Part shown: positions 40,249 through 52,560 of the stretch, one piece after another
How positions within the stretch are numbered: the first letter of the stretch is position 1
Layout: every line of letters starts with the position of its first letter
DNA from: Bacteroidales bacterium
GTDB taxonomy: Bacteria; Bacteroidota; Bacteroidia; Bacteroidales; UBA932
NCBI GenBank assembly: GCA_017427885.1
Contig: JAFRRW010000014.1
Span: forward strand, 1-57,389
Direction of reading: 5' to 3'
DNA: 57,389 nt
Position numbers and translations under genes: made by a program
Notes under the pieces: model-generated
Database searches by the model: none
What the model was told of the DNA's origin: nothing
Seen by the model: only the letters and a program-made list of their open reading frames with translations

Positions 40249-40778
40249 GGATAATCGGGGGTTCCCTCAAAGGCAGGCAGATCGACCCTCCTCCCGGCTA
40301 CAAGGCCCGTCCCACCACGGATTTCGCCCGCGAGGGCCTTTTCAACGTACTTGACAACGAATACGAGTTTCCCGGCCTGAAGGTCCTGGACCTTTTCGGC
40401 GGCACGGGAGCGGTCTCCTTCGAGTTCGCCTCCAGGGGCGTCGGGCACGTCTGGTGCGTGGAGATGGCCAGGGAGAACGCCACTTTCATAAGGCGCGAGG
40501 CCGGCCGCCTGGGCATAAGCAACGTGACGGTCGTGAGGGACAACGTCTTCGATTTCCTCGACGTCTGCAAGGAGAAGTTCGACATCGTCTTCGCAGACCC
40601 TCCCTATGCCTTGGACGCCCTCGAGACCATTCCCGACAAGGTCCTGTCCGCCGGAATCCTCCATCCCGGCTGCTATTTCATCCTCGAACACGGGGACGAA
40701 CATTCATTCACGGACCATCCGGCGTTCAAAAAAGAGAAGCGGTACGGTCGCGTCCACTTCTCTTTCTTCGAAGGATAA
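40245..40778 (+). CDS. rsmD: 16S rRNA (guanine(966)-N(2))-methyltransferase
   Basis: Methylates G966 of 16S rRNA in the 30S subunit. The 177-residue product has the RsmD opening MRIIGGSLKGRQID, the segment PTTDFAREGLFNVL, the SAM motif VLDLFGGTGAVSFE, and the catalytic DPPY in FADPPYALDAL near residue 118. It starts on the overlapping ATGA with DUF3822. The stop is 11 bases before the palindromic element at 40790. Confidence 0.95.
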   Translation: MRIIGGSLKGRQIDPPPGYKARPTTDFAREGLFNVLDNEYEFPGLKVLDLFGGTGAVSFEFASRGVGHVWCVEMARENATFIRREAGRLGISNVTVVRDNVFDFLDVCKEKFDIVFADPPYALDALETIPDKVLSAGILHPGCYFILEHGDEHSFTDHPAFKKEKRYGRVHFSFFEG

Positions 40779-40789
40779 TTTTTCTTTCC

Positions 40790-40909
40790 TGAGATATTCC
40801 CTGAGTACCTTTCAGTGACTGTGCCACCCTCGGCAACATAAGAGGGAGGGGCCCTTTAGGGAGGGGCCGCGAAGCGGCGTCATCTGAAAGGTACTCAGGG
40901 AATATCTCA
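40790..40909 (+). repeat. Palindromic intergenic element, copy 1
   Basis: Perfect 26-base inverted repeat: arm 40790-40815 (starts TGAGATATTCCC) and complementary arm 40884-40909. They flank 68 bases with smaller hairpins, CCCTC/GAGGG at 40827-40846 and GCCGC-GAA-GCGGC near 40866. The sequence at 40809-40836 is 27/28 identical to a stretch in copy 2 (52495-52560). The right arm includes the stop codon of the HerA-like gene (40907-40909). It fills the only wide convergent gap in the window. No ORF inside. Confidence 0.85.
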
Positions 40910-52494: not shown

Positions 52495-52560
52495 TGATTA
52501 TTCCCCTCTCTCATCTTGCCGAGGGTGGCACTGTCACTGAAAGATATACAGGAATAATCA
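52495..52560 (-). repeat. Palindromic intergenic element, copy 2
   Basis: 66-base element between the CPBP gene and the nitroreductase gene. Ten-base inverted termini are TGATTATTCC (52495-52504) and GGAATAATCA (52551-52560). The core at 52516-52543 is 27/28 identical to 40809-40836 of copy 1, read on the same strand relative to the upstream gene. In the minus transcript it forms CCCTC...GAGGG with a loop starting GGCAA. It starts 12 bases after the CPBP stop. Confidence 0.8.

Follow-up and report, generated by a model that had tools for sequence, protein, structure and literature searches.

Dispersed palindromes of about 105-150 bp, found in intergenic spacers as well as in frame within conserved protein genes, have been described as Rickettsia palindromic elements (RPEs) and as the coding palindromes of Wolbachia (PMC2229807, PMC10969869). 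Frequent in-frame insertion of palindromes has been described above all for Rickettsia (PMC10969869). MITEs, among which Correia/NEMIS, RUP and ERIC, are described as short non-autonomous inverted-repeat elements of about 100-200 bp with many copies and some in-frame fusions (PMC2229807, PMC10969869), and REPs as extragenic palindromes of 20-40 bp (PMC3733652). Long coding palindromes are reported from nematomorphs, for which template switching has been proposed (PMC6649704). According to published work, template switching between the arms of an inverted repeat homogenises the arms and inverts the spacer, coding DNA included (PMC8604942); it also builds or mends stems through two-sided changes of several bases (PMC8794818). 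The family analysed here is not described among the matches listed for literature on Cryptobacteroides repeats or Bacteroidetes palindromic elements.

This family was recognised from two copies in a contig of a Bacteroidales bacterium (GCA_017427885.1, JAFRRW010000014.1); the whole stretch of 57,389 nt that was analysed is called the window, and the genome to which it belongs the own genome. It is best read as a mobile coding palindrome that appears to work like RPEs, an analogy that carries no claim of relatedness. Two likenesses to RPEs were tested and found, namely a dispersed palindrome of ~105-150 bp with many copies per genome (copy 1 of the window has 120 bp) and in-frame copies within conserved protein genes (25 copies in 24 proteins). 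However, RPEs are described as encoding a conserved peptide, whereas the element uses four frames on both strands. RPE arms are reported to lose their repeat identity over time (PMC6649704), while most arms of the element keep pairing though diverging. The phylum is also a different one, and the core of the element is inverted between species. The RPE1 model TIGR01045, the sole RPE family compared, had no match in the own genome, but its control likewise matched nowhere; neither was it among the matches listed for ten element-bearing proteins.

With MITEs, as these are described, the element shares its small size, non-autonomous appearance, inverted repeats, many copies and in-frame fusions. 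MITEs mostly have terminal inverted repeats and target duplications (PMC2229807), whereas the arms of the element vary, terminal repeats common to the own copies were not found, and no duplication was recognised. The suggestion of a MITE- or REP-like mobile element in the original prediction stands as far as a dispersed, non-autonomous-looking mobile palindrome is concerned, but the target-site duplication and matching transposase were not found. REPs and REPINs are likewise palindromic and present in many copies, and Y1/HUH genes occur in most genomes of the genus; compared to REPs as described, the element is longer, its stem varies while its core is constant, and its copies enter genes. Arm homogenisation together with spacer inversion within coding DNA recalls the spacer inversions of yeast (PMC8604942), and stem repair recalls the maintenance of RNA stems by template switching (PMC8794818). 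The palindromes described in these studies, those of nematomorphs included, are inverted repeats in place, whereas the element is a mobile family that spreads the substrate through genomes.

The two copies in the window

The features of both copies and their flanking genes are given in Table 1. Inverted-repeat analysis confirmed that copy 1 is a perfect 26-nt inverted repeat around 68 nt, as originally predicted, and reading of both copies confirmed that their 28-nt cores match at 27 of 28 positions. Copy 1 starts 11 nt past position 40778, the end of the rsmD-like gene, and copy 2 lies 12 nt past 52573, the stop of the minus-strand CAAX-protease-like gene, spacings that had been given correctly. 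The predicted CCCTC/GAGGG pairing is present in the folded structure of copy 1. The RNA fold of the whole of copy 1 is far stabler than that of shuffled sequences (z -9.7 and -11.8 for the two strands), whereas the fold of the core on its own is matched by that of many shuffles (z -1.7 and -1.3).

Table 1 Features of the two element copies and of the genes beside them (positions in the window)
Feature	Position	Strand	Description
Copy 1, whole element	40790-40909		120 bp
Copy 1, left arm	40790..40815	+	26 nt, TGAGATATTCCCTGAGTACCTTTCAG; perfect reverse complement of 40884-40909; sequence unlike the arms of other own-genome copies
Copy 1, core	40816..40883	+	68 nt; conserved TGCCACCCTCGGCA...AGAGGGAGGGG block; core-like matches across own genome and genus
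Copy 1, right arm	40884..40909	+	26 nt; final 3 nt are the stop codon of the minus-strand HerA-like gene
Copy 2, whole element	52495-52560		66 bp; core on strand opposite to copy 1
Copy 2, left arm	52537..52560	-	full 24 nt, TGATTATTCCTGTATATCTTTCAG in core orientation
Copy 2, core remnant	52505..52536	-	5' half of core, 3' half deleted; blast match at 52503-52556
Copy 2, right-arm remnant	52495..52504	-	outer 10 nt, GGAATAATCA on minus strand
RsmD-like RNA methyltransferase gene, PF03602	40245..40778	+	11 nt upstream of copy 1
HerA-like helicase gene, PF05872	40907..42478	-	convergent, abuts copy 1
CAAX-protease-like gene, PF02517	52573..53205	-	end 12 nt from copy 2
Nitroreductase family gene, PF00881	51950..52483	-	downstream of copy 2

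The 10-nt termini noted for copy 2 are present as read directly from the sequence (TGATTATTCC...GGAATAATCA), but they do not represent a shorter arm type, since the left arm has its full 24 nt. What copy 2 lacks is the 3' half of the core together with the inner 14 nt expected of the right arm, which leaves only the outer 10 nt to pair; it is a truncated, damaged copy. No match spanning its site was found in eight relatives. In genome G216 the rsmD-HerA spacer that holds copy 1 is also occupied by a copy, in the opposite orientation. The arms of the G216 copy match those of copy 1 at 13 of 25 positions, hardly more than is found with unrelated own copies (mean 11.6, best 15); this case was therefore not counted as a proven flip and may be a second insertion.

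Size, spread and anatomy of the family

In the own genome (1.87 Mb in 17 contigs, 81% complete) the pattern GTGCCACCCTCGGCAA with up to two mismatches was found at 36 places, against one for the reversed-pattern control, and the exact 14-mer core at 30, against none for its reversed control. A blast search of this genome with the element gave 44 matches at E<=10, including short chance matches and partial ones. The exact 14-mer core is present in 23 of 61 genomes of the genus, which may be Cryptobacteroides. The longer pattern was found in three of 295 genomes of the order: the own one, one from a different genus of its family and one from a different family. Named genome contigs hold at least 111 stretches with the pattern; the 80 records listed are Bacteroidales or Bacteroidia assemblies, one of them titled Alistipes, and many titles name ruminant gut samples. 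Carriage by viruses or plasmids was rejected, as no exact core pattern was found in viral contigs and an 82-nt core query had no match in plasmids.

The 172 non-redundant core hits from the own and related genomes include 143 with an arm-stem score of at least 12, a score reached by none of the 172 when the left flank was shuffled (control maximum 9). The median stem among these 143 copies is 25 nt, and 95% of their arm positions are Watson-Crick paired (3344 Watson-Crick, 56 G.T, 32 A.C and 70 other). For 27 of the 30 own loci a stem could be computed, the other three being without anchor; it measures 19-26 nt in 26 loci and 6 nt in one (L016). Among 29 own copies the mean pairwise identity is 0.90 for the core, 0.40 for the arms and 0.26 for the outside flank, and a weak common consensus of the arms survives. 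The arm identity above that of the flank, the consensus and the pairing together suggest that the arms have a common ancestry and have drifted far with pairing kept, while the core stayed similar. The observation that arms are unlike between copies yet pair within each copy thus extends from the window to the family.

Own copies that were measured span 99-124 bp except for L016 (80 bp), with L012 at about 190 bp and copy 2 at 66 bp. Longer cores were seen in L012 and L018 of the own genome and also in L200, L209 and L189. In L012 (C6:68037) and L018 (C11:22794) the core is ~74 nt longer and includes an extra structured-looking segment (GGTGAGAGCAGTCGAACTTGTTCGGACTGC...); this form is possibly an older, fuller version of the element. 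At C10:12480-12667 of the own genome two tandem cores (L016 and L017) lie 110 bp apart, and the pair has matching outer arms. The L017 stem encloses both cores, and the arrangement looks like a duplication within a single element.

For 22 own copies both neighbouring genes were called: 8 copies lie between convergent genes, 11 between tandem and 2 between divergent genes, and one overlaps an ORF. Own copies nearly fill the spacers between convergent genes, often ending a few bases from a stop codon. The original prediction had both copies facing the same way relative to the gene. Indeed, the core lies in the gene sense at both window copies, but this is no general rule, since among the 11 own copies in tandem gene pairs the core follows the gene direction in 4 and opposes it in 7.

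Empty sites

Alleles with neither arm nor core were found at five sites, for copy 1 (genome G374), L001 (L174), L130 (L134), L171 (L263 of G194) and L019 (G216 and G374). Since these five empty alleles show neither arm, their sequences point to insertion of arms and core as one unit. All comparisons of empty and filled sites are between species, with flanks about 70-88% identical and no strain-level empty site among them, so that at any single site a loss instead of an insertion is possible. No target-site duplication was recognisable in the five between-species comparisons. Comparisons with L156 (for L130), L200, L228, L104, L014, L142, L247 (for copy 1) and of L006 with G374 were left out, as the spacers were too diverged for confident reading. 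Fold-back copying of one flank at insertion was also considered for the origin of the arms; it was ruled out by the absence of both arms from the empty sites.

Copies in frame within protein genes

A stop-free frame of at least 30 codons on either side surrounds 66 of the 172 core hits, some of these frames being spurious. Of 30 element-bearing proteins submitted, 24 had Pfam matches, and these hold the 25 in-frame copies. Pfam or NCBIfam matches flank the element on both sides in 18 of these proteins and on one side in L098, L126, L138, L180, L198 and L220. L099, judged a chance 14-mer match from its short stem and the lack of other element sequence, was omitted from the protein-gene set and kept among the 172 and 169 core hits. 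The proteins are TilS, UvrA, RNase R, TruB (two), RlmI (two copies in one gene), FtsK, the acyltransferase (E2) subunit of 2-oxoacid dehydrogenase, a biotin/lipoyl-domain protein, QueH, CutC, GH3 (two), GH95, peptidase M16, a glycosyltransferase, an RsmF-like methyltransferase, riboflavin kinase, a phage-integrase family recombinase, a radical SAM protein, YhhN, a zinc-ribbon/FHA protein and FAD-dependent proteins (two). The core is in sense orientation in 14 copies and antisense in 11, and four frames are used (10 and 4 copies in sense, 8 and 3 in antisense).

Family models are interrupted where the element lies. In an NCBIfam scan of ten element-bearing proteins the match to UvrA broke off between residues 594 and 640 (element 600-641), that to RNase R between 361 and 403 (element 366-400) and that to TilS between 183 and 231 (element 188-228); the RlmI match is likewise interrupted at the element. 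For TruB and CutC two stretches each were reported, with bounds given for only one. The extra segments of these proteins would be mobile DNA, and fusion proteins are expected to be made from such genes. In-frame copies have weaker stems than the rest (median stem score 14 vs 22, p=0.0015), as expected if protein constraint resists copying of the arms. The frequent in-frame insertion described above all for Rickettsia is matched by this family in gut Bacteroidales, whose copies are in genes such as tilS, uvrA, truB, rlmI, ftsK and the RNase R gene.

The rlmI-like gene with two copies (L076, in G008 C31) has them in opposite orientation, both in frame. At the same insertion-tolerant spot of tilS, L264 (G141) has a different, unrelated in-frame hairpin repeat (CATCCTTCGGG...CCCGAAGGATG), in view of which the genus may harbour several coding palindrome families.

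Inversion of the core and paired changes of the arms

The segment corresponding to the copy 1 core occurs inverted at sites shared by other species. When two species carry a copy at the same site, the core can differ in orientation; it does so in 11 of 23 ortholog pairs and at 8 of 14 sites; the grouping into sites was done by hand, and the pairs overlap since one site gives 6 of the 23. Eight sites have at least one pair with an arm identity of >=0.67, at which the same insertion is likely, and six of these eight show a flip. Within genes the inversion replaces the encoded peptide inside otherwise conserved proteins. In TilS the sequence ...PAGYHPENLCHPRQHKREGP...DFQGDTRPE... of G105 stands against ...PAGYCPEN...WVPPSYDAEGGTNFQGSTPPE... 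of G215; the arm-encoded ends are similar, with the peptide of the reverse strand in the middle. The glycosyltransferase (GT2) pair L227/L157 shows the same swap of the middle, with the arm-encoded residues kept and flanking DNA about 90% identical.

The arms change on both sides. In ortholog pairs with an arm identity above 0.55, 427 arm positions could be compared, of which 315 are the same, 76 have changed on both sides and are still Watson-Crick paired, 4 have changed on both sides and are unpaired, and 32 have changed on one side. About 22 two-sided and 149 one-sided changes would be expected if the two arms changed independently at the same rate. Double changes in pairs with an arm identity of >=0.7 comprise 21 transitions and 19 transversions, and include ten runs of 2-3 adjacent double changes. 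The near-equal numbers and the adjacent runs are expected of copying and not of G-U intermediates. One-sided changes between orthologs (A/G 10, A/C 7, G/T 5, T/T 1) show no G-U preference. Arm mismatches, scored symmetrically for G-T and A-C, contain more G.T than A.C (58 vs 33, p=0.011; among the 143 stems 56 vs 32, p=0.014), an excess that pure DNA copying does not predict and that fits RNA-level selection or a strand bias.

The original prediction had read the arm differences as compensatory change. Two-sided arm changes between species were indeed found, but they need not mean selection for pairing, because template switching accounts for both these changes and the core inversions. Two observations had been named as speaking against the element, absence of the core elsewhere and arm changes that destroy and preserve pairing equally often; both were checked and neither held.

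Proposed mechanism and alternative explanations

The element is probably a mobile palindrome of which arms and core insert together, after which template switching inverts the core and re-copies the arms. It would be a small palindrome (own copies mostly about 100-120 bp) with a conserved core between self-complementary arms of ~20-30 nt, inserting between genes or in frame within protein genes. An insertion within a gene would lengthen the protein by roughly 33-50 residues, read in any frame and orientation that happens to be open. The long hairpin would then be prone to replication template switching between its arms, and each switch could flip the core and rewrite one arm with the other as template; arms would in this way diverge between copies and stay complementary within a copy. 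Both signatures of template switching, arm homogenisation and spacer inversion, occur together in this family, and we infer that template switching, rather than selection or recombination, is their cause.

An explanation by selection, in which the hairpin is kept as transcribed RNA (a 3'-end stabiliser, terminator or regulatory RNA) and compensatory mutations pass through G-U intermediates, would account for the G.T excess among arm mismatches, for the very stable fold of copy 1 and for the location of own copies mostly at gene ends. We consider it unlikely. The core faces genes either way and is inverted at more than half of the shared sites; copies lie within conserved protein genes, in which termination would do harm; the armless core folds like many shuffles; and transversions are nearly as frequent as transitions, with no G-U preference in the one-sided changes. 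The either-way orientation, the inversions and the in-frame copies also speak against a structured 3' RNA element as a general explanation, as had been suggested originally. With Rfam 15 no match was obtained in the window at gathering threshold, and in five element loci searched to E=5 none fell on the element, the one sub-threshold miRNA match lying elsewhere; a known RNA family was ruled out on these grounds. The flipped cores argue for template switching. The many natural replicates in this species-rich genus can be used to ask whether selection or template switching lies behind the complementarity of arms. The family also calls for caution, since two-sided pair-preserving change, usually a strong sign of functional RNA, can arise without selection on RNA.

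Invertible switches are common in Bacteroidales, and an inverting segment flanked by 20-30 nt inverted repeats is what a phase-variable switch would look like, with the arms serving as recognition sequence for a site-specific recombinase that flips the core. Such a switch is nevertheless very unlikely, as the arms are nearly unrelated between copies of one genome and no shared recombinase site is visible, except possibly in the inner few bases. Least probable is that a mobile core inserts into palindromes already present in the host, terminators for instance, to which the arms would then belong. Copy-specific arms would be accounted for in this way, and the empty TilS site does have a short CTCC-ggca-GGAG inverted repeat. 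This reading is disfavoured by the residual common consensus of the own arms, and insertion into pre-existing palindromes or terminators was rejected on account of the five empty alleles, which have neither arm nor a comparable palindrome.

An extension of the mobile palindrome proposed above is that the element is read by its structure: the mobilising machinery would recognise the hairpin fold together with the core and disregard the sequence of the arms, in which case the arms may be any pairing sequence, and core inversions in genes would repeatedly generate protein variation by replacing ~15-25 residues of working proteins with reverse-strand peptide. This is put forward tentatively, as a possibility of modest weight.

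Mobilisation

The element would be mobilised by an enzyme acting in trans; no such enzyme was identified and no enzyme-bearing copy was seen. An autonomous long version was searched for downstream of 23 low-scoring copies, over up to 6 kb and less in short loci, and no exact far arm match (12-20 nt) was found. The distribution of Y1_Tnp (PF01797) suggests a REP/REPIN-like population with a RAYT-type Y1 (HUH) transposase as mobiliser, a reading compatible with template switching as the mechanism acting on the arms. This domain occurs in 46 of 61 genomes of the genus, and the element is present in 21 of the 46 genomes with it and in 2 of the 15 without (Fisher p=0.033, not corrected for kinship or genome completeness).

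REP/REPIN repeats flank a RAYT gene. Twenty Y1 regions, all of which were checked for the core, do not show the element in such a position. They hold one exact core (L272 of G033), ~1 kb from a Y1-like ORF and within the frame of another gene, and one further degenerate core match (L287); an HxH ORF was detected in 15 of the 20, at least one of which (L283) is unlike a Y1 protein. By eye, several Y1 ORFs instead have their own short repeats on the flanks. With a weak genome-level association and neighbourhoods that give no support, RAYT was set aside as the mobiliser, and mobilisation of this kind is considered unlikely.

The stop-free frame that holds the core of L272 (233-1357), which looks like that of an RsmA/KsgA methyltransferase, has a repeated in-frame segment ahead of the core (STPLHPQGGLRGVPLRH twice). 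In L274, L277, L279, L285 and other Y1 regions, RAYT-like Y1/HUH ORFs have on their flanks arrays of short repeats peculiar to them, for example with CACATGT or ATGTGTCCGG motifs; these ORFs and their repeats apparently constitute a separate REP system in the genus.
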